IMG/VR virus record: IMGVR_UViG_3300008259_000230
Location: 1 to 20,044 of that record
Length of the DNA: 20,044 nt
Reading direction: 5' to 3' (one strand)
Source: a virus
The notes under the pieces are model-generated. The model had not been told where the DNA came from. It made no database searches and worked only from the letters and a program-made list of their open reading frames with translations. The translations under genes were made by a program, and so were the position numbers. Shown here one piece after another: positions 1,035-12,887 of this stretch (positions within the stretch are counted from its first letter, which is position 1; each line of letters opens with the position of its first letter).

Positions 1035-1909
1035 GACTTCTCCTTAAAGTAAATATAAGTTTGGTACTGCTTACAAAACGGGGCAGCCTGGCAGAAGCTA
1101 TCGCAACGTGTTCGGCCACCCTCTCTGGTTTCTATGTAATGTGGTTCTTTCTGCTGGCCGGCAAATACTGCGGCCTCATCTTTAATCTCAAATACTTTCT
1201 TAGCCCGCTTGCCGCCTTCTTTCATAACGGCATACGTAGTCTTCTTCTCCCACATTTCTTCGCTCGTACACTGCGGCATGTTCCCGCTGACCGCTGCAAA
1301 GTTTGCTTCGTTATGCAAGGTTAGACGGCGTCGCACAAACTCCTCGCGGTCTTCCTGCGACCACAGTGGTATGTCTAGTGTGACGATAGGTGCTTGCGGG
1401 TAAGTATCTTTGAGAGCTGCTTCCCTGCGGCTCCAATCCCGCACGATGCCGATGATTTGTAAGCCAGCCACTTTGTCACCCTTCACGCGCTCGACTAGCC
1501 ACGCGTACAGGTTGAGCTGGTCTATCCATTCTTGCTTCTCTTGCTGGACTGCCCACGCGCTAGTTACTTTGTAGTCGGCAATAAGTACTTTGCCATCTAT
1601 CAATTCCTGCAAATCTATAGCACCGCTAATAGACCATCCCTCAAACGTAGTGAACAGGCGTTCTTCTACTATGTGATGGTCGTCCTTGCCATGCTCTAAG
1701 ATATTATGGACAGCCGATCCGAACAGCGACCAGACCATATCAGCAGCATCCTGCTCGATATCTTCTTGGTGCTGGCGGCGTAATAGAACTAGCTGCGGTG
1801 GTGACAGGATCTCGGTGACACTTATCTCGCTGCTGCCCTTGCTATACTGAGGCCGCTTAATAACATTGACGAAAGTTTCCGGGAGGTTAAATTTATTAGT
1901 TAGCCTCAT
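1031..1909 (-). CDS. PD-(D/E)XK nuclease, RecB/Cas4-like, with four Cys (possible Fe-S cluster)
   Basis: A 292-residue putative exonuclease. Its PD-(D/E)XK core can be read in order: GSAVHNILE (about 64-72), a Glu in IVEER (about 81-83), Asp 99 in ISGAIDL, the D-x-K motif IADYK (Asp 112, Lys 114) and QLNLYAW (131-137). Cys 214 plus a C-terminal C-x3-C-x5-C (269, 273, 279) match the four-cysteine layout of Cas4/AddB-like nucleases that bind an iron-sulfur cluster. Cluster binding is inferred. The chosen ATG has GGAGGATAGCA directly upstream; a start five codons earlier lacks a comparable site. It lies upstream of ERF in the same operon and probably resects DNA ends for it. Confidence 0.88.
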   Translation of the reverse strand: MRLTNKFNLPETFVNVIKRPQYSKGSSEISVTEILSPPQLVLLRRQHQEDIEQDAADMVWSLFGSAVHNILEHGKDDHHIVEERLFTTFEGWSISGAIDLQELIDGKVLIADYKVTSAWAVQQEKQEWIDQLNLYAWLVERVKGDKVAGLQIIGIVRDWSRREAALKDTYPQAPIVTLDIPLWSQEDREEFVRRRLTLHNEANFAAVSGNMPQCTSEEMWEKKTTYAVMKEGGKRAKKVFEIKDEAAVFAGQQKEPHYIETREGGRTRCDSFCQAAPFCKQYQTYIYFKEKS

Positions 1910-2234
1910 TGCTATCCTCCACAAACTTAATTTTGTTTAGCTTGTCGATTGCTATCTGTAATTCTTTTTTATAAAGCTCAACCAATGGTTTTTGGTCTAC
2001 TCCAAAGAAAAGTTCTTCTTCACTCCAGACACGGTGCATATCAATCAAACTACTAATAATTTCTTGAATGCTGAAGTCTAATTTCAACTCCATATGATCA
2101 GCATCTTTATCATGCCAATCGCGTGGGATTATGGTGCTATCGTTCCATAAACAAATAGATAATTCCAAGTCGCCTGTATTGGTTACCTCTTCATGTATCA
2201 GGCTGTCTTTAATAACTATGATTCGCTGTGTCAT
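1896..2234 (-). CDS. Hypothetical protein (112 aa), first gene of the recombination operon
   Basis: A 112-residue soluble, acidic protein I do not recognise. It starts MTQRIIVIKDSLIHEEV, where the ATG has a GGGAGGATGAC Shine-Dalgarno region. The N-terminal half looks beta-rich and includes LELSICLWNDSTIIPRDWH. The C-terminal half is predicted helical (SIQEIISSLIDMHRVW and LYKKELQIAIDKLNKI). Its end overlaps the start of the nuclease gene by 14 nt. Position as promoter-proximal gene suggests early expression. Nothing in the sequence assigns a function. Confidence 0.8.
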   Translation of the reverse strand: MTQRIIVIKDSLIHEEVTNTGDLELSICLWNDSTIIPRDWHDKDADHMELKLDFSIQEIISSLIDMHRVWSEEELFFGVDQKPLVELYKKELQIAIDKLNKIKFVEDSNEAN

Positions 2235-2242
2235 GTCATCCT

Positions 2243-2280
2243 CCCTAGATGTAGGTATGATATTATCTCTATATCTAGGG
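2243..2280. promoter_or_regulatory. Inverted repeat across the leftward promoter (possible operator)
   Basis: CCCTAGAT (2243-2250) and ATCTAGGG (2273-2280) form a perfect 8-bp inverted repeat separated by 22 nt. The arms bracket the -10 hexamer and start site, and the inner one also reaches the Shine-Dalgarno. This is a reasonable geometry for a repressor site, but no binding protein is identified. Confidence 0.45.
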
Positions 2281-2288
2281 CTAGTCAA
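2260..2288 (-). promoter_or_regulatory. Leftward sigma70-type promoter of the recombination operon
   Basis: Read on the minus strand: TTGACT (2288-2283), 17-nt spacer, TAATAT (2265-2260). A GATAAT hexamer overlaps the -10 region. The expected start is about 2253, just upstream of the Shine-Dalgarno of the gene starting at 2234. An 8-bp inverted repeat lies across it. Confidence 0.7.
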
Positions 2289-2330
2289 CAGATATTTTTG
2301 TGTTATTATGTCTGTTGTATTGATTGATTA

Positions 2331-2346
2331 GTGTAAACGTTGCCAG
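2331..2346 (+). repeat. Copy of dispersed GTGTAAACGTTGCC motif
   Basis: GTGTAAACGTTGCCAG lies about 45 nt upstream of the leftward promoter. Its first 15 bases are identical to copies at 5684-5701 and, inverted, 14457-14474. A shorter inverted copy is at 15615-15627. Confidence 0.65.
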
Positions 2347-2455
2347 GGTAAATTTGTGTTATTGTTGTATCGGGAAAGCTCGCTGGTCACCTTCCTCCTG
2401 TTGTCGGTCTCCTTCCAGCGGGTGAGTACCATCTCGCTAGGGTTTCGGCCCTTTT

Positions 2456-2480
2456 ACCCCTGCTTCGGCGGGGGTTTTTT
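2456..2480 (+). terminator. Rho-independent terminator with no protein gene upstream
   Basis: ACCCCTGC (2456-2463), loop TTCG, GCGGGGGT (2468-2475): an 8-bp stem with one G-T pair, followed by T2476-T2480. It reads on the plus strand. The 170 nt upstream hold only further hairpins: CGCTGG (2381-2386) pairs with CCAGCG (2415-2420), and AGGG-TTTCGG-CCCT is at about 2439-2452. The terminated transcript is therefore likely a short non-coding RNA or a leader starting near 2290-2370. No clear promoter for it was found. Confidence 0.75.
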
Positions 2481-2504
2481 ACAGAATTGCAGTAGTAAAG
2501 AAAA

Positions 2505-2577
2505 GTGCCGGTTCGATTCCGGATGGTTTGCAGACGGCTTGGTAGCGACGGGGTGCGGTTCGAATCCGTGATTGACC
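2505..2577 (+). other. Two tRNA T-arm-like sequences (possible tRNA remnants or mimics)
   Basis: GCCGG-TTCGATT-CCGG (2507-2522) and TGCGG-TTCGAAT-CCGTG (2554-2570) both carry the T-arm consensus loop TTCRANN with a 4-5 bp stem. A D-arm-like string GGCTTGGTAGCGAC sits between them at about 2536-2549. I could not fit an acceptor stem, an anticodon arm or a CCA end to either, so these are not called as tRNA genes. They could be remnants, an attachment-site core, or part of a structured RNA. Confidence 0.35.
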
Positions 2578-2632
2578 TAGGTAGGTAAAAGGCATGACAT
2601 CTAGGAAAGACTAGAACTAACACGCATGAGGA

Positions 2633-2660
2633 TTGAGGCAAAGGCCCGTAAATTTATATT
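2633..2660 (+). promoter_or_regulatory. Candidate sigma70 promoter for the large structured RNA
   Basis: TTGAGG (2633-2638), 16-nt spacer, TATATT (2655-2660, five of six consensus bases). The predicted start near 2667 falls directly before the first strong helix of the structured region (2669-2678 with 2760-2770). Confidence 0.5.
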
Positions 2661-2779
2661 TTGCGAATGCTGGTCAGGTAAACGAGCTGGAATGCCTGCT
2701 CGCTGACTACAGTCCTCAGTCGTGTTGGTGTGGCTGGTAGCAACGGTTTCCCTTAAACTCCTGACCAAGCTCAGGGACG

Positions 2780-2846
2780 CCAACAACTTAGTCGGTATGG
2801 GCCAATGTAGCATCGACACATACGCTGGATAATCGTAACCAGCACT
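2780..2846 (+). repeat. Structured-RNA module, copy A (67 nt)
   Basis: Runs from CCAACAAC to CCAGCACT. It contains GTCGG...GCATCGAC and the hairpin GCTGG-ATAATCGTAA-CCAGC (2824-2843). It is about 80% identical to copy B, and the third stem pair is U-A here (T2826 with A2841). Confidence 0.8.
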
Positions 2847-3083
2847 AACAAGTTTGAGGGTTTGGGTGGTAGAACCCGGTCAGTGGTATAGCTCTTACGT
2901 CACTTGCGGCCGCAACACGTAATCTCGTACCTTCATCCCGGACTCCTCATGTTTCGCAAGCATAACTAAGCCTTCAAACTTGTTGGTGAATGCGTAGGCT
3001 GATACGCGGCATAAGTTATGTGACCTCCAGAGCCAGTCTCTCGCATAACTTAGGTTGGCAAAGCCGGAGATCAGCACCGGCCA

Positions 3084-3150
3084 CCAACAACCAAGTCGGC
3101 GTAGGCCAGCGTAGCATCGACATACGCGCCGGATAATCGTAACCGGCACT
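3084..3150 (+). repeat. Structured-RNA module, copy B (67 nt)
   Basis: Same order of elements as copy A. Its hairpin is GCCGG-ATAATCGTAA-CCGGC (3128-3147): the loop is identical to copy A while the third stem pair is C-G (3130 with 3145). It also forms GCGTA/TACGC (3110-3114 with 3123-3127). Confidence 0.8.
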
Positions 3151-3214
3151 TGCAAAAAACTGGGACATGTCCTAATATCTGCTTGTCACTGTGTCAGGCG
3201 GAGACAACCAACCT

Positions 3215-3292
3215 AAGCCCTTAAGCTTTGGTTCTTACCCCTTAAGTGGGAACGTGCCTGACACACGGAGAACCAAGCCTTAAGGGTTTTTT
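3215..3292 (+). terminator. Terminator of the structured RNA with competing upstream arms
   Basis: CTTAAGGG (3279-3286) followed by six T (3287-3292). It can pair with AAGCCCTTAAG (3215-3225; 11 bp including one G-U when T3287-3289 are used) or with CCCTTAAG (3239-3246; 8 bp). The second arm can instead form GTTC-T-TACC / GTGGGAAC (3231-3253). The alternatives exclude each other. Confidence 0.5.
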
Positions 3293-3608
3293 CATTTCCG
3301 GTGACCGCACCTCCCGCGTAGTAGAGAGCCTGCATGGGCTGCCGGAGAGAGAACACTGGTCGAGGTTTCACCTGCCTACGAACCACGCTACCTGTCGATG
3401 AGGGATAGCACAAGAGGGAGAAGCCATGGGTGATAGACAACTTCTCCATCGAACTAATCATCGCCTTCTGGGTTTGCCAGTATTCAGCATTAAGAATATG
3501 GGCAGGTGTGATACTCCACTCGTGTGCTGCGCATAGGTGGTGGGCTATCACCCTTGGGTAACCTAGAACTAGGATATGCAATAGATGGGAGTAGGGTGGA
3601 ACTAACTG
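3293..3608 (+). other. Gene-free structured stretch upstream of the rightward promoter
   Basis: No convincing gene on either strand. Helices include TCGATG/CATCGA (3395-3400/3447-3452) stacked on GGAGAAG/CTTCTCC (3417-3423/3441-3447). GTGATA/TATCAC (3508-3513/3545-3550) encloses CCAC/GTGG and TGTGC/GCATA. CCTAG-AA-CTAGG is at 3562-3573. It may be a second structured RNA, a continuation of the first beyond its terminator, or a replication-origin region. Strand is uncertain, because the helices exist in either. Confidence 0.4.
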
Positions 3609-3637
3609 TTGACACAGATAAGATTACAGATTATTGT
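3609..3637 (+). promoter_or_regulatory. Rightward sigma70 promoter of the early/replication operon
   Basis: TTGACA (3609-3614, perfect -35), 17-nt spacer, TATTGT (3632-3637). The expected start is about 3644, with AGGAGG at 3651-3656 serving the ATG at 3660. The TTG of the -35 opens the same frame as the first gene and could be mistaken for its start codon. Confidence 0.8.
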
Positions 3638-3659
3638 TTACGTTCTTACAGGAGGAATT

Positions 3660-3830
3660 ATGGAAACAGGAGAATGGTTACGTGATCATCTGCGCGAGTT
3701 CGCAGACAGGCTGGAACAGTCAGTAGTAGAGCGCGAGCGTGAGCGGGCAGCGGTAATTTGCCATGCTATGCGGGACGTAGAGTATCCAGCACTGGAGATA
3801 GCAGAGAGAATAATGGGGAGGTCAGAATGA
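3660..3830 (+). CDS. Small hypothetical protein (56 aa)
   Basis: First gene after the rightward promoter. It is 56 residues, METGEWLRDHLREFADRLEQ onward, strongly charged and almost entirely helical, with VVERERERAAV in the middle and ALEIAERIMG at the end. AGGAGG lies 3 nt before the ATG. Its stop overlaps the next start as ATGA. I do not recognise it. Its amphipathic helical character and promoter-proximal place suit a short regulatory or host-interaction protein, but that is only a guess. Confidence 0.75.
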   Translation: METGEWLRDHLREFADRLEQSVVERERERAAVICHAMRDVEYPALEIAERIMGRSE

Positions 3831-4030
3831 AAGCGTTTCCAATAAGCGCACAGTCGTTGGAGAAACACAACGGCAGAGATTTATCCGGTATGGACTTGCG
3901 TGATTACTTTGCGGCGAAAGCTATGCAAGGATACATGAGCCGCACATTGATTGATGGCTTTGATGAGGATGTTATGTCCGAAATGTCTTACAAGGTTGCC
4001 GACGCCATGATGAAAGCGAGGGATGAATGA
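3827..4030 (+). CDS. Small conserved phage protein with LRDYFAAKAMQ motif (67 aa)
   Basis: A 67-residue protein. Residues 20-36 read SGMDLRDYFAAKAMQGY and the C-terminus reads YKVADAMMKARDE. This LRDYFA(A/G)KAM...A..mADAMLKAR pattern is a family I know as common in phages and prophages and of unknown function. The ATG sits in an ATGA overlap with the upstream stop and has GGGGAGG as its Shine-Dalgarno. The in-frame upstream extension overlaps the previous gene and is less likely. Its own stop overlaps the glycosyltransferase start. Confidence 0.8.
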   Translation: MKAFPISAQSLEKHNGRDLSGMDLRDYFAAKAMQGYMSRTLIDGFDEDVMSEMSYKVADAMMKARDE

Positions 4031-5142
4031 TCCAATTCAACAGATACAAACTACCGGACGAGACAGTCGATTTCCACTCGTCATTTATAGGTCTGGTAGA
4101 GACTCTCAAAGCAGAGATAAACAGTGACTGCGCCCGAAGTATAGGACTGCTGCTTTCAATGGCACAGAGGTACCCTTTAAGCGATCGGCTGCCCTGCGTG
4201 GCCGCCAGGCTGTACTACTGGGGCAAGGTAAGCTGGTCATTCTTAGATAAGATGCTGCCGGCAAAGCTGCCTGCCAATTTCTTTTACACGCAGGAGCTGG
4301 TTGGTTGTCTAGGTTTTGAGCGATCAGCAAGTAAATGGGGTATTACAGAGGATCAGTGGAGGCTCTACCAAGGATTTGCAGAAGACTTCCCGCTTGATGT
4401 CCGTGCTACTGAATTTGTGTCATATCGCCCACGAAGCAGCGGATTCTTTAGCGTGATTGAGAACCTGATTGCAGCTCATATTGTTGCTGACATGGAAGGT
4501 AAGCGTTTGCAAATAGATTTAACAGGCAACTGGTGGGCTTACGATGAGCCGTTTGAAGATATCTTTGGCGACTCGTTTGAGTTTACAAAAGATGGTTCGC
4601 TGCCCCAGATGAGCTTCGAGGGTATGCGTCATCAGTGGATTCATGCTAACGACAAACTTGCGTCAATGCTTGCGTATTTGAAAGAACATTACTACACAAT
4701 GATTCTGGATGACATATCAAAGGTAGCCCATCCAATAACTAACATGGATTCGGCTGGCGTGATGTTTGTGCGTGGCGGCGATAAGTTAATGACTGAGACT
4801 GTTGTGCCACCAATGAAGTATTTGCTCAGAGATTTAAAGTCTATGGCTCGCAGGTGTGACGCCAGGTATGTACTGTCAGACGATCAGAATTTAGGGGAGG
4901 TTGTATCCTCGCTTGACGCGTATGTTGTAAACAAAAGCAACAAGATAGTCGGCGGCTATCACCACCACTTTGGTCACAAGCAGAGCTGCATGAACATACT
5001 GCGCAACTATATGTCAATGGTCGAGGCTAAAGAAAATATGTCGTGCCCGTCAGCCAATCTTGTTAACGCTGCACAGTGGAGCCGGAACGACAAAGAGAAC
5101 TACAGCCTGTCAAATCCAGTGCATCGCTACTTACTGATATAG
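4027..5142 (+). CDS. Putative glycosyltransferase, FUT8/GT23-like fucosyltransferase fold
   Basis: A 371-residue protein with no membrane segment. Residues 248-258, VRGGDKLMTET, followed by PPMKYL, resemble the donor-binding motif of alpha-1,6-fucosyltransferases (FUT8: VRRTDKVGTEA then HP..Y). Residues 281-287, YVLSDDQ, match the later Y-(L/V)-A/S-T/S-D-D segment. NMSCPSANLVNAA near residue 339-351 resembles the SSN-type motif of the same GT-B group. The upstream GFFSVIENLIAAHIVADMEGK could be the N-terminal Rossmann-like entry. The family is assigned by motif reading only. The second Arg of the RR pair is Gly here, so the exact activity is uncertain. It starts in an ATGA overlap with the previous gene. 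It may modify host surface sugar or phage DNA/protein; which is unknown. Confidence 0.6.
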   Translation: MIQFNRYKLPDETVDFHSSFIGLVETLKAEINSDCARSIGLLLSMAQRYPLSDRLPCVAARLYYWGKVSWSFLDKMLPAKLPANFFYTQELVGCLGFERSASKWGITEDQWRLYQGFAEDFPLDVRATEFVSYRPRSSGFFSVIENLIAAHIVADMEGKRLQIDLTGNWWAYDEPFEDIFGDSFEFTKDGSLPQMSFEGMRHQWIHANDKLASMLAYLKEHYYTMILDDISKVAHPITNMDSAGVMFVRGGDKLMTETVVPPMKYLLRDLKSMARRCDARYVLSDDQNLGEVVSSLDAYVVNKSNKIVGGYHHHFGHKQSCMNILRNYMSMVEAKENMSCPSANLVNAAQWSRNDKENYSLSNPVHRYLLI

Positions 5143-5144
5143 CC

Positions 5145-5249
5145 ATGGAAACTTTTGAACTCATCACATTAGCTGGAGGTATTTTGATCGGCATGGGGGT
5201 TTTACTTTTAATAATAGCAGCGGTGGTTGCTTATTTACTTGGAGAATAA
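5145..5249 (+). CDS. Single-pass membrane peptide (34 aa)
   Basis: A 34-codon frame starting METFELITLAGG. Its core of about 24 hydrophobic residues (ILIGMGVLLLIIAAVVAYLL) is followed by GE and the stop. It sits between the glycosyltransferase stop (2 nt upstream) and the ParB-like start (1 nt downstream), which favours it being real, although its Shine-Dalgarno is weak. Its 3' end carries the GGAG that serves the next gene. The predicted topology is N-out or N-in, with one transmembrane helix. Function unknown. Confidence 0.55.
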   Translation: METFELITLAGGILIGMGVLLLIIAAVVAYLLGE

Positions 5250-5250
5250 A

Positions 5251-6039
5251 ATGAATGTAGGATTAGAAAAAATACGAACGGATGGCGGCACGCAGAGTCG
5301 GGTAAAGATTGACGAGAATGTAGTAGCAAACTATGCCGATGACATATTAAACGGCGCAGATTTTCCGCCTGTTGTTTTATTCTTTGACGATACAGATTAC
5401 TGGCTGGCAGATGGGTTCCATAGATACTTCGCAAACAAACGGATCAATGCACCAAGTATCAAGGCAGAGGTAATTGAAGGCACAGTCAGAGACGCTATCC
5501 TGCACGGCATACAAGCTAACAACAAGCACGGCCTACGCCCTACTAATGAGGACAAGCGCAAGGGTGTACTTACTATGCTTAATGATATTGAATGGCAAGA
5601 ATATTCAAGTCGTGACATAGCCAAGATATGTGGCGTGTCTCATACGTATGTAAGTAATCTACGCGCTCAACTAACAGGAACAAGTGTAAACGTTGCCACT
5701 CCAAAGGAACCGCGCAAAGAAAAGCAGCCTGTTGATCCGGTAGAGGAATTCAACGAAGCAGAACTTGAGCGCGAAAACCTGCGTGCAGCAGCAGATAATT
5801 TGCAAAAACAGAACGAAGATTTACAGGACAAGCTGACAGTTGCAATGGCTGGCGGGGATGATATAGAAAAAGAAAAAGCACAGTCAATCATCACAGATTT
5901 GCGCGCACAGATCAGACTGTTAGAGATAGAATTAAAAGCTGTCACCACTTCGCGTGACCAATTCCAAAGAGAGAACGCGCAGCTAATGAAGCAGGTAGCT
6001 ATGCAGCAAAAGAAACTTAACAAGCTCGAAGGTAAATAA
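5251..6039 (+). CDS. ParB/Spo0J-like DNA-binding protein
   Basis: A 262-residue protein. The N-terminal ParB/sulfiredoxin-type domain includes PPVVLFFDDTDYWLADGFHR (39-58, with the DGFHR signature) and NANKHGLRPTNEDKR-like NKHGLRPTNEDKR (91-103). A helix-turn-helix, SSRDIAKICGVSHTYVSNLR, is at 119-138. A basic linker and a long coiled coil (about 165-260) with heptad-like LQKQNEDLQDKL and LRAQIRLLEIEL follow. The ATG with GGAG 6 nt upstream is preferred over an upstream TTG. Such proteins in phages may act in partition, replication or transcription, and no ParA gene is visible. The linker codons (residues 144-150) contain an 18-bp copy of the dispersed GTGTAAACGTTGCC motif, which could be its own binding site. 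Confidence 0.85.
   Translation: MNVGLEKIRTDGGTQSRVKIDENVVANYADDILNGADFPPVVLFFDDTDYWLADGFHRYFANKRINAPSIKAEVIEGTVRDAILHGIQANNKHGLRPTNEDKRKGVLTMLNDIEWQEYSSRDIAKICGVSHTYVSNLRAQLTGTSVNVATPKEPRKEKQPVDPVEEFNEAELERENLRAAADNLQKQNEDLQDKLTVAMAGGDDIEKEKAQSIITDLRAQIRLLEIELKAVTTSRDQFQRENAQLMKQVAMQQKKLNKLEGK
5684..5701 (+). repeat. Dispersed motif copy inside the ParB-like gene
   Basis: GTGTAAACGTTGCCACTC, identical over all 18 bases to the reverse complement of 14457-14474. It encodes the linker between the helix-turn-helix and the coiled coil, a place tolerant of sequence constraint. Confidence 0.7.
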
Positions 6040-6049
6040 TAAAACCCAA

Positions 6050-6069
6050 GCCAGCGGGCTAGTGCTGGC
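6050..6069 (+). promoter_or_regulatory. Intergenic hairpin between ParB-like and helicase genes
   Basis: GCCAGC (6050-6055) and GCTGGC (6064-6069) pair perfectly around an 8-nt loop, GGGCTAGT. There is no U-tract, so it is more likely an mRNA processing or stability hairpin than a terminator. It ends just before the GAAGGA Shine-Dalgarno of the helicase gene. Confidence 0.45.
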
Positions 6070-6083
6070 AGCGAGAAGGATAA

Positions 6084-7556
6084 ATGGCATTAAACCTACG
6101 CTCTTATCAAGAGCAAACGTTAGCTGCTTTGCGTGAAGGATTTGCAAAGGGCAAGAAGGCACAAATATTATACGCGCCCACAGGAGCTGGGAAAACTGAG
6201 ATGGCTATCGCTCTGATGGCTGCTACTAAAACCAAAGGTAACAAGGCTGCGATGCTGCTTGATCGTGTGGTGTTATGCGACCAGACCAGTAAGCGGTTAG
6301 ACAAGTACGACATAGACCATGGCGTGTTGCAGGCTGGTCATTGGCGGTATCGCCCCTACGAATCCATCCAAGTCTGTTCAGCTCAAACACTTGAGCGGCG
6401 CGGTAGTTTCCCAGGACTAAATCTTCTGATCGTGGATGAGGCACATCAGACCAGAGAACAAACTGTCGAGTTTATCAAAGCCAACCCGCACGTTCGTGTG
6501 ATCGGACTAACTGCAACTCCATTTACAAAGGGTCTCGGCAAGATATACGACAACGTAATCAGCACAGTCACAACCAAGCAATTGGTGGATGACAAAGTGC
6601 TAGTTCCCTTGCGTGTATTTATTGCCAAAGAGATTGACATGACTGGCGCAAAGAAGGTTGCCGGAGAATGGTCTGCTGATGAAACCACGCAGCGCGGCAT
6701 GGTAATTACCGGCGACGTTGTAACCGAATGGATAAAGAAAACGCATGAGATATTTGGTGAGCCTCGCAAGACAATCGTGTTTGCCAGCGGTGTGGAGCAT
6801 GGTATAGACCTGGCGCGTAAGTTCCAAGAGCAAGGACATAACTTTATTTGCATCAGCTACAAGGATGATGACGAATGGAAGAAGCAAGTCATCGAAGACT
6901 TCAGTAAGCCTGATACGCAGATCACAGGGTTGATAGCTACGGATATCCTAACAAAAGGGTTCGATGTCAGCGATGTGATGATCGGCATATCTGCTAGGCC
7001 ATTTAGCAAGAGTTTATCGTCTCATATCCAGCAGATGGGGCGCGTTATGCGTGGTCATGAGGGCAAAGACTTTGCGGTGTGGCTAGATCACAGCGGCAAC
7101 TACCTGCGTTTTCGTGATGACTGGGATCAAGTATTTGAGCAAGGCGTAGAGAATTTAGATGAGGGTAAAGAAAAGGTAAAGACAGAGCCGACAGAAAGAA
7201 TTAAAGCAGAAAGCAAGTGTCCATCATGTTCTGCGCTGTGGCCGAGCGGGTCTGATACTTGTTACAACTGCGGCCATGTCAGAGAGAAAAAGAACAAGGT
7301 GTTCTCTCTTGATGGTGAAATGATTGAGCTGGCTGGCAACGTTTCCAGAGATACCAAACAGGACTTCTGGAACCAAATGGTTTGGTACATGAAGGTGCAA
7401 GGCTGGTCTAAAGGTAGGGCGAGTCATACATACAAAGATAAGTTTGGCGTCTGGCCTCGTGGTCTGCGGGATGATACGCCAGCCATGGCGTCGGATGAAA
7501 CCAGAAAATATGTAGAGAAAAAACTGCGTCAATTTATACGCTCGGTAAGGAGATGA
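6084..7556 (+). CDS. SF2 DNA helicase, RadD-like, with zinc-finger
   Basis: A 490-residue superfamily 2 helicase. The motifs run in order: LRSYQEQTL near the N-terminus (Q-like motif), Walker A APTGAGKT (31-38), DEAH box VDEAH (117-121), GLTATP motif III (141-146), TDILTKGFDV motif V (286-295) and QQMGRVMRG motif VI (316-324). A four-cysteine finger C-x2-C...C-x2-C is at 379, 382, 393 and 396. This order plus the finger matches the RadD/YejH group, helicases tied to recombination and replication-fork repair. GAAGGA precedes the ATG. Its stop overlaps the leader of the Toprim gene. It probably unwinds or remodels forks during phage replication; specificity is not shown by sequence. Confidence 0.9.
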   Translation: MALNLRSYQEQTLAALREGFAKGKKAQILYAPTGAGKTEMAIALMAATKTKGNKAAMLLDRVVLCDQTSKRLDKYDIDHGVLQAGHWRYRPYESIQVCSAQTLERRGSFPGLNLLIVDEAHQTREQTVEFIKANPHVRVIGLTATPFTKGLGKIYDNVISTVTTKQLVDDKVLVPLRVFIAKEIDMTGAKKVAGEWSADETTQRGMVITGDVVTEWIKKTHEIFGEPRKTIVFASGVEHGIDLARKFQEQGHNFICISYKDDDEWKKQVIEDFSKPDTQITGLIATDILTKGFDVSDVMIGISARPFSKSLSSHIQQMGRVMRGHEGKDFAVWLDHSGNYLRFRDDWDQVFEQGVENLDEGKEKVKTEPTERIKAESKCPSCSALWPSGSDTCYNCGHVREKKNKVFSLDGEMIELAGNVSRDTKQDFWNQMVWYMKVQGWSKGRASHTYKDKFGVWPRGLRDDTPAMASDETRKYVEKKLRQFIRSVRR

Positions 7557-7558
7557 CC

Positions 7559-8410
7559 ATGGACTTTATAGAATTTGCCCGCAGTCATGGCATCCTGATT
7601 AACGATATGCCACCGCTCGGTGTGTGGAAACGGTTGCCAACAGAAGATCATCCTCGCTCGCGCAATGGGGCAGTCAAATACATGGGAGATGTTGGGTTCG
7701 TTCAGAACCATGCGACAAGTACCGTCGTATCTATATGGAAGCCTGACTCTCGCAATGTAACTATAGATCGTTCGTCTGCGCTGGCATCAATCAAGAAGGC
7801 AGAGGATGAACAGAAGAAACGCCAGCATCAGGCTATGCAACGCGCCGTCGGAATGCTTAACGGCAGCGGCCTGAGTACGCATCCATACCTTGAAGCAAAG
7901 GGTTTTCCTGATGAACAGGGCAATGTGCTGTGGCAGGACGGTAAACCTGTGCTTCTGATCCCGATGCGGGTGGGTGGTAACTTGGTGGGCTTGCAGCAGA
8001 TTGACGAGGACGGCGGGAAGAAGTTCTTGTACGGTCAGCGTACAAGCGGTGCGGTGTTTACCTTTGACAACAAGGGCATGAATGTACTGTGCGAAGGATA
8101 CGCGACTGCGTTGTCTGTGCGTCTGGCATTTAAGCAGATGAAGCAGAGGTACACGTTGCACGTTTGTTTCTCGGCGGGGAACATGGCGAAAGTTGCGGCA
8201 GGTCTGGAGCCTGGCCTTCTGATCGCAGATAACGATGCGTCTGGTACTGGTCAGCGCGTGGCAGAGGAAAGCGGTTGGAAATACTGGCTGTCTGATCGTA
8301 TTCAAGAAGATGCCAATGACTACCATCAGCGGGTTGGCTTGTTCGGGTTTACTCAAAGCCTGACCCAGTCAATGCTCGGTAGTCGTGCGGAAAGCAGCGC
8401 CCATACTTAG
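7559..8410 (+). CDS. Toprim-domain primase-like protein
   Basis: A 283-residue protein. The C-terminal half is a Toprim domain: the Glu motif VLCEGYATA (Glu 179) and the DxD motif LIADNDASGTG (Asp 224, Asp 226), followed by DANDYHQRVG, typical of phage and TraC-like primases. The middle segment HPYLEAKGF...LLIPMRV...LVGLQQID also fits that family. No CHC2-type zinc finger and no separate polymerase module is visible, so it may be a reduced primase or a primase accessory factor. I chose the ATG 6 nt after AAGGAG; an ATG two codons earlier would touch the Shine-Dalgarno. It is the last gene of the rightward operon and meets the leftward array tail-to-tail with a 42-nt overlap. Confidence 0.85.
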   Translation: MDFIEFARSHGILINDMPPLGVWKRLPTEDHPRSRNGAVKYMGDVGFVQNHATSTVVSIWKPDSRNVTIDRSSALASIKKAEDEQKKRQHQAMQRAVGMLNGSGLSTHPYLEAKGFPDEQGNVLWQDGKPVLLIPMRVGGNLVGLQQIDEDGGKKFLYGQRTSGAVFTFDNKGMNVLCEGYATALSVRLAFKQMKQRYTLHVCFSAGNMAKVAAGLEPGLLIADNDASGTGQRVAEESGWKYWLSDRIQEDANDYHQRVGLFGFTQSLTQSMLGSRAESSAHT

Positions 8411-8572
8411 CGCACCGTCCGTCAATGGTTGGATAGCGGCGAGCGATTGCATGATCTCGATACCCAAGTTCAGGCATCGCTCACCTTCTCCAGACCAATC
8501 AGATACTACGCGCACGTTCCCATCTTCATCTTCAAGAAGGTGAATTGAAAACGTGGCGGGGTGGTTATTCAT
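8369..8572 (-). CDS. Small hypothetical protein (67 aa), last gene of the leftward array
   Basis: A 67-residue protein starting MNNHPATFSIHLLEDEDGN, with VRVVSDWSGEGERCLNLGIE in the middle. It overlaps the 3' end of the Toprim gene on the opposite strand by 42 nt and is coupled to the previous gene by an ATGA overlap. It lacks the repeated start cassette. The pattern of a short beta-rich start followed by LGIEIMQSL resembles small phage proteins of unknown role. No terminator is apparent between the converging operons. Confidence 0.65.
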   Translation of the reverse strand: MNNHPATFSIHLLEDEDGNVRVVSDWSGEGERCLNLGIEIMQSLAAIQPLTDGALSMGAAFRTTTEH

Positions 8573-8766
8573 GCGTCTAGTTTATCTGATTGCGCCCACA
8601 GCATTTGTCCGACTAGCATTTCCGCCATGTTTTCTATTTCCTCTTGTATCCATTCGTCTGAATAACCCTCGAATGGTTCCCATGCGGTAAGGTCGTCAAC
8701 GTCTGCATAAAAGTGCATTGATGCAATTGCGTGTGCGCGTTCTTTAATTTCGGCTAATGTTTTCAT
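8569..8766 (-). CDS. Small acidic hypothetical protein (65 aa)
   Basis: A 65-residue acidic, helical protein with an EWIQEEIENMAEMLVGQ core. The start cassette is a variant, AGCAGATCAGACGATG, in which the Shine-Dalgarno core is AGCAG instead of AGGAG, so initiation may be weaker. The upstream gene's TAG lies at the cassette edge. Not recognised. Confidence 0.7.
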   Translation of the reverse strand: MKTLAEIKERAHAIASMHFYADVDDLTAWEPFEGYSDEWIQEEIENMAEMLVGQMLWAQSDKLDA

Positions 8767-8777
8767 CGTCTGATCTG

Positions 8778-9074
8778 CTAGTTGTCCACTACGTTAATGA
8801 AAGTATCTTTTGGCGCAGGGCGAACGGTCACAACATACCCTATGCGGTTGACATAGTGCCAGCCGTTAGTCAGTACTGGATAACCATCATCATCTTCAAC
8901 AATTGTCCATACGCGGTCGGGCGCAAGTTCGTAAACGGTTTTGACGTACTTATAATCATCGCCGTAAGTTTCTAACATGCAGCCGTTCCAACTGGCGTTA
9001 TCGTCAAAATCATTCTTCTGCGGCAGGTATTCTTTATAAAACTGTTCTATCGTTATCTCGCTTACTGTTGTCAT
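8778..9074 (-). CDS. Conserved phage/plasmid protein of unknown function (98 aa)
   Basis: A 98-residue protein with FYKEYLPQKNDFDDNASWNG, CMLETYGDDYKYV, RVWTIVEDDDG and GWHYVNRIGYVVT. The combination N-x-N/D-ASW-G-(C/M)-x-ETYG, VWT-(I/L/Y) and HxVNRxGY(x)VT is a family I recall in phages and plasmids, without known function. The start used is the ATG of an exact AGGAGATCAGACGATG cassette; the frame stays open 14 codons further upstream, but that part encodes only the cassette and the preceding gene's end. Confidence 0.8.
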   Translation of the reverse strand: MTTVSEITIEQFYKEYLPQKNDFDDNASWNGCMLETYGDDYKYVKTVYELAPDRVWTIVEDDDGYPVLTNGWHYVNRIGYVVTVRPAPKDTFINVVDN

Positions 9075-9085
9075 CGTCTGATCTC

Positions 9086-9241
9086 CTATCGGATACGTTC
9101 GTAAACCGCGATGCAACTGATTAAATCGTCGTGATCTAAAGCCTGTTCTTCTGCATGGTTAGCATCTTCAGCATCGCAATGAAAATTCCAACGATTCAAT
9201 TCATCTTCACCTTCCTGCACAATAACTATGTATTCGTTCAT
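9086..9241 (-). CDS. Small acidic hypothetical protein (51 aa)
   Basis: A 51-residue frame, MNEYIVIVQEGEDELNRWNF onward, with acidic DAEDANHAEEQALDHDD in its second half. The exact start cassette precedes it, and its TAG is fused to the next cassette (TAGGAG). It has a beta-strand followed by a helix, like many short phage proteins that display input in a single small domain. Not recognised. Confidence 0.75.
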   Translation of the reverse strand: MNEYIVIVQEGEDELNRWNFHCDAEDANHAEEQALDHDDLISCIAVYERIR

Positions 9242-9252
9242 CGTCTGATCTC

Positions 9253-9408
9253 CTATTGTTCGGGGTGTGGTGAATGAAATACTTGGCGCGATAAAGCCAG
9301 TAATTTTTCTGCTTGGTCAACGTGCAAACCGTTATGTTCGGCGTATTTTTCAACCGTTAAATAATTGTTAATGTAATCAAGGTATGTTTTTACAAGTTCA
9401 TCTCGCAT
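9253..9408 (-). CDS. Small conserved phage protein (51 aa), YAEHNGL-x-VDQAEKLL motif
   Basis: A 51-residue helical protein reading LDYINNYLTVEKYAEHNGLH then VDQAEKLLALSRQVFH. The pattern F/YLTVExYAEHxGLxxxQAxxLIxLxR is one I associate with short phage proteins, possibly a small helix-turn-helix-like fold. Exact start cassette upstream. Its TAG overlaps the cassette of the next gene. Function unknown. Confidence 0.78.
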   Translation of the reverse strand: MRDELVKTYLDYINNYLTVEKYAEHNGLHVDQAEKLLALSRQVFHSPHPEQ

Positions 9409-9419
9409 CGTCTGATCTC

Positions 9420-9596
9420 CTATATTGCTTTAAAGTATTGAATCCATGAGTAAATAGTTTCCGAATCAAACCAATCTTCCCTACGCATCATCAATTGCAA
9501 AACCTGCCGCGCATCGTCATTGCTCAGGCTATCGTCAATCGCTTGAATGTCAGTAAAATGTAAGCTAATTGATGCTTCATCTGGTAACTGTGTCAT
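9420..9596 (-). CDS. Small acidic hypothetical protein (58 aa)
   Basis: A 58-residue frame from MTQLPDEASISLHFTDIQAI to YSWIQYFKAI. Acidic in the centre (DDSLSNDDARQV) and aromatic towards the end (DWFDSETIYSW). It has an exact AGGAGATCAGACGATG cassette and a TAG fused to the next one. Not recognised. The frame is supported by cassette, tight packing and matching style with its neighbours. Confidence 0.75.
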   Translation of the reverse strand: MTQLPDEASISLHFTDIQAIDDSLSNDDARQVLQLMMRREDWFDSETIYSWIQYFKAI

Positions 9597-9607
9597 CGTC
9601 TGATCTC

Positions 9608-9781
9608 CTAATTGTCAGTAACTTTAAGTTCTTCTTGTAACCATGCCATAGCGGTGCATATATCGCTCCATTCGGCATCGTATTTTGCATCTCCTTCAGG
9701 TATGCAGTTATCGCGGTATTTAAACAGCGCGTCCCAAATGGTTTCCATCCATGTTTCTTCGTCGTTCGCTCTAAGTATCAT
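9608..9781 (-). CDS. Small acidic hypothetical protein (57 aa)
   Basis: A 57-residue protein with two helical blocks, NDEETWMETIWDALFKYRDN and AEWSDICTAMAWLQEELK. Instead of the repeated cassette it starts in an ATGA overlap with the stop of the upstream gene, with GGGAG further upstream, so translation is coupled. Its own TAG is fused to the exact cassette of the following gene. Not recognised. Confidence 0.75.
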   Translation of the reverse strand: MILRANDEETWMETIWDALFKYRDNCIPEGDAKYDAEWSDICTAMAWLQEELKVTDN

Positions 9782-9990
9782 TGCTTATTCTCCCTTGCGT
9801 ACTTAAGTGCTGACCAAAATACATTACTCATGTCTTGCAGAGACGAATAGTAGTCACCATGCTCTCCATCATAAAATTCATCATCATCTTCTGATAATAA
9901 AAACGCAATTACCGCTTCATCTGGAAACCCGCCATTACTATCTACAGCGCGAGCAAATGCTTTTTCATCTGCTGTTAGTTCTCTTGTCAT
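9778..9990 (-). CDS. Very acidic small hypothetical protein (70 aa)
   Basis: A 70-residue protein, MTRELTADEKAFARAV onward. It contains a strikingly acidic patch, SEDDDEFYDGEHGDYY (about 33-48), between two helices. Strong local negative charge is a property of DNA-mimic and nuclease-inhibitor proteins, but this alone does not assign such a role. Exact start cassette. The preceding gene's TAA directly abuts it (TAAGGAG). Confidence 0.75.
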   Translation of the reverse strand: MTRELTADEKAFARAVDSNGGFPDEAVIAFLLSEDDDEFYDGEHGDYYSSLQDMSNVFWSALKYARENKQ

Positions 9991-10002
9991 CGTCTGATCT
10001 CC

Positions 10003-10437
10003 TTACCAACTGGCACAATATTCAAATTCCCAAGTGTCGTCTAACTCTGCAAGCAGGGTTTCGATCTCGGCGGCGGTGCGTCTGATGTCATTCCAGTAGT
10101 CATCATTCACTTCTGTGCCACCAAAAAAGAATCCTTCCTGCGGCGGCAGTATCCTGCTGTCTTTGTGATATAGCGCGGCGCGGCAGTCTTTTAACAGTTT
10201 CTCCAGTTCTTCTCTGGTTACATAGTGCGGCTTACATTCGTCTATTCCATCCTGCACATTGTCAACAAACCAGCTATGAATCTGGTTTGCTTTGCGCCAG
10301 TACATTGCTTCAATTGAAACTTCTTTAACTCTGCGCTGTACGTTTATTTTTTCCTGAATCTCTTTTGCAACTTGTGTGTCTGCATCATTAAAACTCCACA
10401 AGTATTTTTTAGCGGATAAGTACATATCTAACCCCAT
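10003..10437 (-). CDS. Conserved phage protein of MGLDMYL family (144 aa)
   Basis: A 144-residue protein whose start MGLDMYLSAKKY, central YWRKANQIHSWFVDNVQDGI, YVTREELEKLLKDC and LPPQEGFFFGGTEVNDDYW segments follow a pattern widespread in phages and prophages (MGLDMYL...YWRK-N-IH-WF...GFFFG). The function is unknown to me. The start cassette here is a diverged form, AGGAGATTAAATCATG, in which the spacer differs but AGGAGAT is kept. It is the longest gene of the array. Confidence 0.88.
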   Translation of the reverse strand: MGLDMYLSAKKYLWSFNDADTQVAKEIQEKINVQRRVKEVSIEAMYWRKANQIHSWFVDNVQDGIDECKPHYVTREELEKLLKDCRAALYHKDSRILPPQEGFFFGGTEVNDDYWNDIRRTAAEIETLLAELDDTWEFEYCASW

Positions 10438-10448
10438 GATTTAATCTC

Positions 10449-10688
10449 CTATTTGAATTGGCTGCAGTGAATTGATTGATCTAAAATAAGATCACCGTCT
10501 GAGGTAAATGCTTGGATATAAACTTCGTTGTTTTCCAATGTCAGTCGAATGTAACCGCCAACATTTTCTGGATTATTTGCGTCATCAAAATTAAGTAGCA
10601 CATATTGGCTTGTGTCCGTTGTGTGCGTGTCAAGTGATGGAATTAATCCGGCTTGTTGTTTGAATACTTCTATCGGTTCGTAAATCAT
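10449..10688 (-). CDS. Small hypothetical protein (79 aa)
   Basis: A 79-residue beta-rich protein: YVLLNFDDANN, GGYIRLTLENNEVYIQAFTS and DGDLILDQ. Exact start cassette. Its TAG overlaps the diverged cassette of the MGLDMYL gene. Not recognised. The alternating hydrophobic pattern suggests a small beta-sandwich or barrel. Confidence 0.75.
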   Translation of the reverse strand: MIYEPIEVFKQQAGLIPSLDTHTTDTSQYVLLNFDDANNPENVGGYIRLTLENNEVYIQAFTSDGDLILDQSIHCSQFK

Positions 10689-10702
10689 CGTCTGATCTCC
10701 TA

Positions 10703-10915
10703 TCAGTTAATTTCAATCAAAACAAAACCGTCTGAAACAATGTCACCCACTTGCAATTCGTAGTTGTCTGCGTAATAAAATATTTTTTCATCGTCTGAAT
10801 CCTCTATTTCATCCCAACATCCTTTTGCTATGAGTACATCCATAAAATCAACCGTCTTTGCGGTTGGGTCAGTTGGCAAATAAAAGCCTCTGCATTTCCA
10901 TGTTTGGTATTTCAT
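10703..10915 (-). CDS. Small acidic hypothetical protein (70 aa)
   Basis: A 70-residue protein from MKYQTWKCRGFYLPTDPTAK to DGFVLIEIN. It has an acidic middle (EIEDSDDEKIFYYADNYE) and a C-terminal beta segment (QVGDIVSDGFVLIEI). Exact start cassette upstream. Its stop is TGA, followed by TAGGAG of the next cassette. Not recognised. Confidence 0.75.
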   Translation of the reverse strand: MKYQTWKCRGFYLPTDPTAKTVDFMDVLIAKGCWDEIEDSDDEKIFYYADNYELQVGDIVSDGFVLIEIN

Positions 10916-10926
10916 CGTCTGATCTC

Positions 10927-11097
10927 CTATCGGCTGATTGGTATTCCTGCGCGGCGTGCGCGGGTGATTGCTATTTTTGCGGCATGCGTACTCTTAAACA
11001 TGCGTCCTAAAAAATGAAATGTATCGTCTGTCACGTAACAATCTGAGCGCGAAAAGCTGCCGTTTATATACATTCCGTTGTAATAAAAAGTAAACAT
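10927..11097 (-). CDS. Small basic hypothetical protein (56 aa)
   Basis: A 56-residue frame reading MFTFYYNGMYINGSFSRS near the N-terminus and KSTHAAKIAITRARRAGIPI near the C-terminus. It is basic, unlike most neighbours. The cassette reads AGGAGATTAGACGATATG, so two extra bases separate it from the ATG. The TAG is fused to the next exact cassette. Not recognised. Confidence 0.7.
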   Translation of the reverse strand: MFTFYYNGMYINGSFSRSDCYVTDDTFHFLGRMFKSTHAAKIAITRARRAGIPISR

Positions 11098-11110
11098 ATC
11101 GTCTAATCTC

Positions 11111-11293
11111 CTATACGTTGGCTAAGTGTTTTGCTTTAACGACTGCCTGTGCAAGCGTCTGAAAGCGCATTAACAGGCATACGCGCTGGTCTGCATCGGT
11201 ATCAAACAGCGCGACATTAAAACCCTTGTCCGTCTGATAAATGCGTGATTCAACGCCGTATTCTGTGTTTGGGTAGGCTGCTATTTGTTTCAT
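11111..11293 (-). CDS. Small hypothetical protein (60 aa)
   Basis: A 60-residue protein, MKQIAAYPNTEYGVESRIYQ onward, with FNVALFDTDADQRVCLLMRF and a closing helix TLAQAVVKAKHLANV. This strand-strand-helix layout is common among short phage proteins. Exact start cassette. It lies just downstream of a gap with twin TTGACA repeats, which may supply an internal promoter. Function unknown. Confidence 0.75.
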   Translation of the reverse strand: MKQIAAYPNTEYGVESRIYQTDKGFNVALFDTDADQRVCLLMRFQTLAQAVVKAKHLANV

Positions 11294-11340
11294 CGTCTGA
11301 TCTCCTGTATGTATTAGTTAATCACGCTCACAACTATTGC

Positions 11341-11374
11341 ATTGTCAAGCGTGACTCAGTTAATTGTCAAGCGT
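11341..11374 (-). promoter_or_regulatory. Twin ATTGTCAAGCGT repeats, possible internal promoter of the array
   Basis: ATTGTCAAGCGT at 11341-11352 and 11363-11374, spaced exactly 22 bp (two helical turns). On the minus strand each holds ACGCTTGACAAT, including a perfect -35 TTGACA. The upstream one (11370-11365) has GACAAT 18 nt on, at 11346-11341, as a possible -10. It would drive the genes from 11293 down. It could equally be a paired protein-binding site. Confidence 0.45.
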
Positions 11375-11375
11375 T

Positions 11376-11687
11376 TTAAATTGTCTGATCTCCTAATGCT
11401 TTTGATATTGCTGCGCGGGATTTGGCTAGTATGTCGCAGTTCACTAAGCCTTCGTGCCAAACTGTTTGATCTAGTTCAATCTCAGCGCGTGATAGCAGGT
11501 CGCGCAGGGCTTCCAATAAATCAGGCGCGGCGGCGATTAGTCGGGCGTTTGCGGTGGTTTCCGCCAGTCCATCTTCCCAGTCTGGTATTTGCGCGATAAT
11601 CTCGCCTTGTGCGTCTTTAATGTTGCGGATATAGGCGCGGTCGAAAGCGATAGCGGTTTTCCATGGGGCTATAGAATGATTTAGCAT
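11376..11687 (-). CDS. Phage protein of the ANARLIAAAPDLLEAL family (103 aa)
   Basis: A 103-residue protein containing TTANARLIAAAPDLLEALRD (about 44-63) and a closing KSRAAISKAL, a pattern well known in phage accessory genes and without assigned function. The start is the ATG of cassette variant TGGAGATCAGACAATG. The frame is also open upstream, through the cassette. Its last codons, GGA GAT CAG ACA ATT TAA, read straight through another cassette copy (11379-11394) whose start codon is ATT, so the natural C-terminus has gained GDQTI. This suggests that the gene once ended earlier and was fused to a decayed junction. Confidence 0.82.
   Translation of the reverse strand: MLNHSIAPWKTAIAFDRAYIRNIKDAQGEIIAQIPDWEDGLAETTANARLIAAAPDLLEALRDLLSRAEIELDQTVWHEGLVNCDILAKSRAAISKALGDQTI
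11379..11394 (-). repeat. Orphan start cassette with lost ATG
   Basis: AGGAGATCAGACAATT on the minus strand: same as the cassette family except that the ATG is ATT and the following codon is TAA. No gene follows for about 80 nt. It shares the CAAT variant only with the cassette at 11685-11700. Confidence 0.7.
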
Positions 11688-11701
11688 TGTCTGATCTCCA
11701 G

Positions 11702-11905
11702 TTAAACGGTTAATAATCGGGTGCAAGCGGCTTCGTATATTTCGCGTCCGTTCTCGGTCAAGCTGTCAACGGTCAAAAATGGCGATGGTTTAAAATAAGT
11801 TTGAAGTCGGCATAATCGGGCATAACTAGTCGACCATTGACCAGCGTGGCAATGCACTAATGCGAGATACCATGCTTCGGCAATATCGAATCGGTCAAAA
11901 TACAT
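11702..11905 (-). CDS. Small hypothetical protein (67 aa)
   Basis: A 67-residue protein, MYFDRFDIAEAWYLALVHCH onward, aromatic and helical, with a C-terminal LTENGREIYEAACTRLL. FDIAEAWY near the start recurs in short phage proteins, but no function is known to me. Exact start cassette. Its stop is followed by the CTGGAG of the next cassette. Confidence 0.78.
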   Translation of the reverse strand: MYFDRFDIAEAWYLALVHCHAGQWSTSYARLCRLQTYFKPSPFLTVDSLTENGREIYEAACTRLLTV

Positions 11906-11919
11906 CGTCTGATCTCCTG

Positions 11920-12216
11920 TTAATTAAGGTCTAAGGCGTGCTGCTGCGGGTTTAATAAATGATTTGTAAAGTAAATGCGGCAGGTATAGCAGTCCGCATG
12001 TAATCCGCTCACTTCGTCAACGGCAAATTGTGTTTCCTGCCTGCCATAATGGGCATCCGTAAAATCAAGCGTGGCATCTGGCAGCTTCCAGTAGTCGCGC
12101 ATGAAAGCGTCGAGGTCGGCGGCTTCGCGGTCGTCAAGTCCAGAATAGTCGCCGTTAAAAAGCGCGGGTAAGTAGTGCGCGGCGAGTGTCAGTTCGTAAT
12201 AATCGTTTAATCGCAT
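11920..12216 (-). CDS. Conserved phage protein of unknown function (98 aa)
   Basis: A 98-residue protein. The N-terminal helical half reads YYELTLAAHYLPALFNGDYS and LDDREAADLDAFMRDY. The C-terminal half reads FAVDEVSGLHADCYTCRIYF. The combination L-x-x-AL.NGD.SGL...E...LD.F and E(V)SGLHADC....Y is one I recall from phage and plasmid accessory regions. The cassette is a variant, AGGAGCTTAGACCATG, which also supplies the TAG stop of the upstream gene. Confidence 0.78.
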   Translation of the reverse strand: MRLNDYYELTLAAHYLPALFNGDYSGLDDREAADLDAFMRDYWKLPDATLDFTDAHYGRQETQFAVDEVSGLHADCYTCRIYFTNHLLNPQQHALDLN

Positions 12217-12219
12217 GGT

Positions 12220-12420
12220 CTAAGCTCCTGCTAAGTGCGCGAAAGTGCGCGGGGTTGATTGTTCGATCTGGATTTGATACCCGAGCGCGGCGATAGTGTC
12301 GAGCGCGTGTCTAGTCAGCGTCTTAGTTCCTGCCAACTTTGCCAGTAGTCGGCTTTGGTCGCATGATGGGTACGCCGTCTCGATGCCGTAATTTTTCTCG
12401 ATTTTAATTGTGATTATCAT
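12220..12420 (-). CDS. Small hypothetical protein (66 aa)
   Basis: A 66-residue protein, MIITIKIEKNYGIETAYPSC onward, ending in ALGYQIQIEQSTPRTFAHLA. Strand-helix-strand layout with a helical KTLTRHALDTIAALG. It starts 4 nt after the upstream stop with a weak AAGGG site, not the repeated cassette. Its stop lies inside the next cassette. Not recognised; similar short proteins with TL...AL..I..LGY are frequent in phages. Confidence 0.72.
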   Translation of the reverse strand: MIITIKIEKNYGIETAYPSCDQSRLLAKLAGTKTLTRHALDTIAALGYQIQIEQSTPRTFAHLAGA

Positions 12421-12424
12421 TTTA

Positions 12425-12721: not shown

Positions 12722-12731
12722 GGTGTTCTCC

Positions 12732-12809
12732 TCAGATGGATAAAAGTAAAAACAAGAAAAGCCAAAGAATAAAGAATCCGGCTATACCTGCCAAAATTTC
12801 GCTGTACAT
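12732..12809 (-). CDS. Single-pass membrane peptide (25 aa)
   Basis: A 25-codon frame, MYSEILAGIAGFFILW followed by LFLFLLLSI, is almost wholly a transmembrane helix. It has a strong TAGGAGAG Shine-Dalgarno, 7 nt before the ATG, and its stop overlaps the GAGGAG of the next gene, as expected of a translated operon member. Two palindromes lie immediately upstream (12832-12878). Function unknown. Confidence 0.6.
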   Translation of the reverse strand: MYSEILAGIAGFFILWLFLFLLLSI

Positions 12810-12831
12810 TGGTTCACTCTCCTAAAAGTGT

Positions 12832-12878: not shown

Positions 12879-12887
12879 AGGTAGCAC

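Follow-up and report, generated by a model that had tools for sequence, protein, structure and literature searches.

The structured non-coding region described here is real; it extends from approximately position 2370 to approximately position 3600 of the window, i.e., the whole 20,044-nt stretch of DNA that was analyzed, and is hence wider than the segment 2667-3292 highlighted in an earlier note on this DNA. In the best-supported reading, the region is a mosaic, or array, of separately folding RNA modules and not a single 625-nt RNA. The explanation for this array that we favor, and to which we would give somewhat less than an even chance, is that it provides small phage RNAs acting in trans, and that its most thoroughly characterized module, A, is a rigid scaffold displaying a variable insert. 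The window stems from a 20-kb phage contig that carries terminase and portal genes; the top matches of the terminase are found in phage 023Pt_psg01, the gammaproteobacterial phage DSL-LC04, and Pelagibacter phages (51-58% identity). Within positions 4027-13500 of the window, a block on the - strand (8369-13487) consists of a run of small ORFs annotated without a function and located between the helicase/primase and terminase genes; several of these ORFs are conserved in the relatives L135 and L169.

The earlier note had proposed one large structured non-coding RNA with its own promoter and terminator. The structured and non-coding character of the segment is borne out by the analysis. No match in PHROGs was found for the six overlapping ORFs tested across the stretch, a coding function was accordingly rejected, and the claim that the stretch lacks a credible gene stands. 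The long helices to which the note had drawn attention also exist: several long inverted repeats are present, and the + strand folds far better than shuffled sequences (z -5.4), with a z value of -3.0 for the - strand. In addition, a direct repeat of 77 nt (2775-2851 and 3079-3155; 79%) occurs in two copies 304 nt apart. What could not be upheld is the idea of one RNA that starts at 2667. In relatives, non-coding conservation spans approximately 2497 to 3656, past both ends of 2667-3292, and the same modules are held in differing orders and combinations; neither the one-RNA reading nor these boundaries are therefore supported. The presumed promoter TTGAGG-N16-TATATT (2633-2660) scores 9/12, a match that chance readily yields (five in the region, 1.4 expected), sits in the loop of the hairpin of module C1, and is missing from L151, the nearest relative that retains C1. 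The terminator stem followed by six T residues (3287-3292), in turn, is real, and the stem covaries in relatives; it represents the 3' end of element K, whose own conserved promoter (3150-3178) would thus drive only the last ~108 nt. A longer read-through transcript that starts at some other promoter may also reach position 3292. The modules recognized in the region, all of them on the + strand, are as follows.

2372-2482, + strand: module D-like stem, GGGAAAGC (2372-2379) ... GUGAGUACC (~2422-2431), closing stem CGCUGG/CCAGCG
2456-2482, + strand: intrinsic terminator after the D-like stem, predicted by a terminator scan
2504-2600, + strand: two T-arm-like hairpins, GGTTCGATTCC and GGTTCGAATCC, degenerate tRNA-like
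2617-2728, + strand: module C1 hairpin, CUAACACGCAUGAGGAUUG (2617-2635) / CAGUCCUCAGUCGUGUUGG (2710-2728), variable interior
2723-2785, + strand: module in the usual slot of A, outer stem GUUGGUGU / ACGCCAAC, 4.8 bits with the A model
2790-2842, + strand: module B, copy 1, AGUCGG + 5-bp stem + hairpin CUGG-AUAAUCGUAA-CCAG
2843-2988, + strand: module C2, 21-nt arms 2843-2863 / 2968-2988, 86% complementary
2981-3089, + strand: module A, predicted outer stem P1 2981-2988/3082-3089, 7-8 bp
2992-2995/3004-3007, + strand: P2 of module A, loop AGGCUGAU at 2996-3003
3008-3062, + strand: variable insert of module A
3063-3067/3077-3081, + strand: P3 of module A, loop AGAUCAGCA at 3068-3076
3094-3146, + strand: module B, copy 2, AGUCGG ... 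CCGG-AUAAUCGUAA-CCGG
3150-3178, + strand: predicted promoter of K, TTGCAA (3150-3155), 17 nt, TAATAT (3173-3178)
~3185-3292, + strand: element K, predicted small-RNA gene, ~108 nt
3183-3187/3203-3207, + strand: hairpin of K, loop UGUGUCAGGC (3190-3199)
3215-3235/3269-3286, + strand: terminator hairpin stem of K, followed by U6 (3287-3292)

Covariation, whose absence the earlier note had named beforehand as grounds for giving up its RNA proposal, is strong in modules A, B, and K and speaks in favor of RNA. Module A was traced through two short stretches (approximately 2984-3007 and 3058-3097) that recur in 88 phage records in blastn searches. The copies share a common layout, in which the outer stem P1 is followed by an AAU linker, P2 with the loop AGGCUGAU, an insert, and P3 with the loop AGAUCAGCA, the second strand of P1 directly abutting P3. 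A search pattern in which only the loops and their spacing are fixed was chosen to avoid selecting for pairing. Among the matches to this pattern listed in viral contigs, P2 and P3 are both paired in 97 of 122, compared with none of the 117 checkable matches in bacterial genome contigs, which were taken as the chance level. P1 had played no part in the selection and is paired at all seven positions in 79 of the 97 viral copies. When all column pairs of 96 sequences were subjected to a G-test with average-product correction, the ten top-scoring pairs were P1, P2, and P3 pairs, with scores between 32 and 117, while the maximum after column shuffling was 23. In 52 aligned sequences, 98.7% of the cells are paired and 15 pairs are changed on both sides, a count that none of 500 shuffles attains and that collapses when the partner strand is slid; G-U pairs are present, as expected for RNA. 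The copy in the window scores 84.6 bits with the covariance model R1, of whose training set it is itself a part. Computationally, these data show module A as a predicted three-way junction closed by P1, with two hairpin loops that are perfectly complementary to each other. We infer that these loops (GCUGAU/AUCAGC) can kiss over 6 bp; the argument is one of complementarity and not of covariation, since the loops are near-invariant in the set, show no covariation, and were used to find it.

The two-half consensus of module A matches 263 of 50,697 phage records, mainly those of Klebsiella, Pseudomonas, and Escherichia phages, and among them P1, D3, and HK620; counts from scans of the sequence collections are lower bounds, and the IMG/VR contigs are redundant. 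All copies that were inspected lie in non-coding DNA: between tRNA-Thr and tciA in P1, between pR' and the lysis genes in HK620, flanked by tRNA genes in D3 and ZC08, and near tRNAs in ST4; doubtful ORFs overlie the module in P1 (plp) and D3 (orf86). The remark of the earlier note that RNAs of this kind are found near tRNA genes is thus matched by P1, D3, ZC08, and ST4. A close association of module A with intact tRNA genes was rejected as weak, as such a gene is found within 1.5 kb of 14 of 107 loci, where eight were expected. Module A is mostly present in a single copy per genome; most copies are not immediately followed by a terminator, and neither a terminator nor a start codon is found at a fixed distance on its 3' side. 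The insert (approximately 33-178 nt) varies freely in sequence and length and does not fold beyond shuffled sequences (mean z -0.4), so that its reading as a conserved folded domain is unsupported; this is as expected for a payload carried by a scaffold. When bacterial genomes were sampled and screened with the A model, one of 229 gammaproteobacteria was retrieved, that genome having been picked beforehand, and none in three other bacterial groups (0/142, 0/119, and 0/119); these results say little because few candidates were scored per genome. DNA similar to module A is carried by E. coli prophages in 999 of 5426 genomes, in many of them over just ~40 nt.

The search of Rfam 15 gave no match to any family, GOLLD, ROOL, OLE, HEARO, and introns included, at the gathering score (window), and none of interest with E values up to 5 (2300-3700). 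These candidates were therefore rejected, and of the classification offered in the earlier note, an uncatalogued structured phage RNA remains while GOLLD and ROOL fall away. ROOL and GOLLD resemble the elements studied here in being phage-borne, highly structured, equipped with kissing loops, and sometimes located beside tRNA genes; they have one fixed fold, in contrast to the present mosaic of short modules, which matches them neither in sequence nor in structure. Module A itself has no match in Rfam 15, nor does element K when the window is searched at the gathering score, and no description of modules A, B, or K was found in the open-licence PMC papers. On account of the CAAC/GTTG ends, integron attC sites were considered as well; their consensus does not seem to fit. 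The order of arms in tRNA and tmRNA is like that of module A: a 7-bp stem, a short linker, a 4-bp arm with an 8-nt loop, an insert, a 5-bp arm that abuts the stem, and a loop-loop contact. Module A differs from a tRNA in having neither an anticodon arm nor the T-loop sequence. No match was found by ARAGORN or in Rfam, and a CCA at the tRNA position is rare (9 of 96 copies), on which grounds a tRNA or tmRNA was rejected.

A bona fide relationship seems to exist with STnc100 (RF02076), an sRNA of gammaproteobacterial prophages. Its 7-bp closing stem ends in GGUG/CACC, as in module A, and both possess an AAU linker, P2, a variable insert, and a 5-bp P3 abutting the closing stem; comparing the STnc100 consensus alignment with the pair counts of module A recovered this shared layout. 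In Klebsiella phage T765, the Rfam match to STnc100 exceeds the threshold; those in Magnus, ST4, and P1 fall short of it. These STnc100 copies occur in the same arrays as module A (P1, T765), or, for sub-threshold ones, near it (Magnus, ST4). The A model detects the P1 copy of STnc100 with 25.4 bits (E 5e-7 in 741 bases, filters off) and that of T765 with 14.2 bits (E 5e-4 in 401 bases), each at its correct position. These scores, weak yet at the right place, show at the level of sequence and predicted structure that module A is homologous to STnc100. Nonetheless, a search with RF02076 retrieves nothing from the window (E values up to 10 over 2960-3110), and the loops differ, those of A (AGGCUGAU / AGAUCAGCA) sharing six complementary bases and the P3 loop of STnc100 measuring 5 nt. 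Since RF02076 fails to match the window despite the A-model scores on STnc100 copies, module A is treated here as a divergent sister family of STnc100 and not as a member. For PasD, which RIL-seq detected as a prophage sRNA in enteropathogenic E. coli, a structural relationship with STnc100 is reported (PMC13192938, 2026 preprint).

Element K has the hallmarks of a stand-alone small-RNA gene with intrinsic termination: it possesses its own promoter at a fixed distance and a terminator, both of which are conserved. In nearly all of 33 relatives, a constant 6 nt separates the -10 element from the GUC of the hairpin, and the mean best promoter match is 8.1/12, versus 6.1 at random positions. The loop UGUGUCAGGC and the segment GCCUGACACA (3256-3265) of the terminator-hairpin loop pair with each other over 10-12 bp, and such a pairing is also seen in relatives of 3160-3300. 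With fixed anchors and no search, the two loops pair at 10 of 10 positions in all 27 non-identical copies, which represent 14 distinct strand pairs, while permuted partners pair at 7.2 positions on average; the first three pairs of this helix are invariant, and their TGT side belonged to the anchor. The predicted loop-loop helix, or pseudoknot, may form within one molecule or between two. In several relatives, an ORF is found within ~70 nt after K, and because a gene follows so closely there, K may act as a leader in these genomes. In L479, the ORF that begins 28 nt after K starts like an HNH endonuclease (PEYEVSNLGRIKR, our own reading of the sequence).

Beyond the terminator of K, the stretch 3305-3600 is a further piece of conserved non-coding DNA (79% identity to L135 over 3149-3656) and contains the hairpin AGCC-UGCAUG-GGCU, for which other relatives have a swapped stem, AACCC/GGGUU. 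The stretch continues up to a good promoter, TTGACA-N17-TATTGT (3609-3637), which is separate from that of K and precedes the next credible start of a gene at position 3660.

Module B was found by a pattern scan in at least 61 viral contigs. The loop AUAAUCGUAA of its hairpin is fixed and was used as the search pattern. In 42 of the 48 anchored copies, all five positions of the stem are paired, and many different stem sequences occur; the stem hence covaries. Module C, located directly upstream of A and other modules, is a hairpin in which two arms enclose a variable interior. The arms of C1 recur in many relatives, and in L151 a complementary replacement stem is present (UAAUAUGUAUGGGGAUUAG / CUUAGUCCCCACCCAUAUUAG); likewise, a different yet complementary stem surrounds the interior of C2 in L135. 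The 3' arm of C2 contains the 5' strand of P1 of module A. The slot at 2723-2785 is filled with other modules in other phages. Module D is also found in relatives; L135 has the identical layout with a replacement stem, CCAGCCAG/CUGGCUGG. The GAAA and GAGUA strands of the D-like stem of the window, in our own reading, resemble a possible loop-E motif. The stem-terminator unit at 2372-2482 may represent a small RNA of its own or a leader. The stretch 2504-2635 of the window is 83% conserved in L151. ARAGORN and Rfam gave no match for 2504-2600, and no complete tRNA is present there; the C modules of P1 and T765 contain similar tRNA-like fragments without an anticodon arm.

Arrays of this kind are not a peculiarity of the window. 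In P1 (AF234173.1; positions 2684-3400 of locus L252), at least four modules line up in the interval from tRNA-Thr to tciA: a C carrying an A-like unit, a B-like hairpin (GCCGGAACCGUAACCGGCAC), a C carrying a canonical A, and a further C carrying an STnc100-like unit. The copy of module A spans 69499-69598 of AF234173.1, and the STnc100-like copy comes after it. Part of this array is crossed in antisense by the annotated ORFs plp and upl. Klebsiella phage T765 (positions 1620-4730 of locus L257) possesses ~3.3 kb without annotated genes, followed by tRNA-Met; the stretch contains many long hairpins, module A, a B-like hairpin, and the above-threshold match to STnc100. Genes plp, upl, and trnT of P1, all located at the array of this phage, proved non-essential in a CRISPRi study (PMC10695390), plp and upl being antisense over or beside the P1 copy of module A. 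A strong laboratory phenotype is hence not to be expected.

Several other explanations for the array have to be weighed. Module B, and K where a gene is close, could be cis-acting mRNA leaders, the copies in the window being either leaders or their remnants. In 23 of 54 B copies, a Shine-Dalgarno sequence and a start codon are found no more than 46 nt downstream (6.4 at random positions, maximum 13), which is in line with this, as are the ORFs close to K in several relatives. In the window, however, neither copy of B precedes a gene, the next start (3660) being located behind a promoter of its own, and we consider this explanation possible but on balance unlikely for the array, a leader role being likely for module B. 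More doubtful is a two-state switch, in which the 5' strand of P1 pairs with either the upstream C arm or the downstream arm of A, transcription or a ligand decides between the two, and downstream termination or processing is thereby controlled. Of 151 loci, 97 have an upstream helix that extends to the P1 strand. In these 97 loci, pairing of P1 with the upstream flank averages 5.3 of 7 positions, versus 4.6 (maximum 4.8) with permuted flanks, and in 45 of them both partners reach at least 6/7 with differing P1 sequences; the window itself would allow both helices with CACUAAC (2843-2849), GUUGGUG (2982-2988), and CACCAAC (3082-3088), which hints at alternative folds. The effect is modest, though; for half of the loci no good second partner exists, and the lack of a terminator or start codon at a fixed distance after A is not what a switch would suggest.

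It is quite improbable, in our view, that the modules make up one long RNA that forms an RNA-only assembly, like ROOL and GOLLD, through loop-loop pairing between molecules. This idea draws on the several loop-loop elements, the tandem modules, the tRNA genes nearby in some phages, and the kissing loops between the chains of ROOL and GOLLD (PMC12286853). It has to contend with the lack of a match in Rfam, with modules that are shuffled and an A that is usually single-copy, unlike a fixed cage subunit, and with a K that has its own promoter. The T-arm-like hairpins that adjoin the modules and the mosaic order would also be compatible with decayed tRNA genes and functionless recombination debris. 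Distant phages show strong compensatory changes in A, B, and K, and these, together with the invariant loops, make this the most improbable of the explanations: for A, B, and K it is contradicted by the covariation, and it could hold for 2504-2600 and for the module at 2723-2785.

We therefore return to the reading that we prefer, an array of small phage RNAs that act in trans. Its computational part comprises the structural conservation of A, B, and K, the promoter and terminator of K, and the homology of A to STnc100. In the proposed mechanism, A and K would be produced during infection as small, stable RNAs and would act in trans. The kissing loops of A would hold a rigid scaffold from which the variable insert is exposed for base-pairing with host or phage RNA, a mode of action that is modeled on the one proposed for the prophage sRNAs STnc100 and PasD. 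K, for its part, would serve as a compact sRNA or, where a gene lies shortly behind it, as an attenuating leader. The A fold may not always form, as the 5' strand of P1 can also pair upstream in half of the copies. A bolder extension, which we put forward as speculation and think rather unlikely to hold in full, is that phages carry a cassette system built from exchangeable RNA modules that share a three-strand junction, whose P1 strand pairs either upstream or downstream, and in which kissing-loop scaffolds present swappable inserts; the junction would be a programmed fold switch, and A the most widespread representative of a superfamily to which STnc100 also belongs.

Module A is present in the classic model phages P1, D3, and HK620 and yet absent from Rfam 15; its role in infection, if true, would be testable at once in P1. 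Element K would be a second uncatalogued family, one in which the loop-loop covariation is unusually clean. The link of module A with STnc100 and PasD would place scattered prophage sRNAs into one structural superfamily of phage origin.
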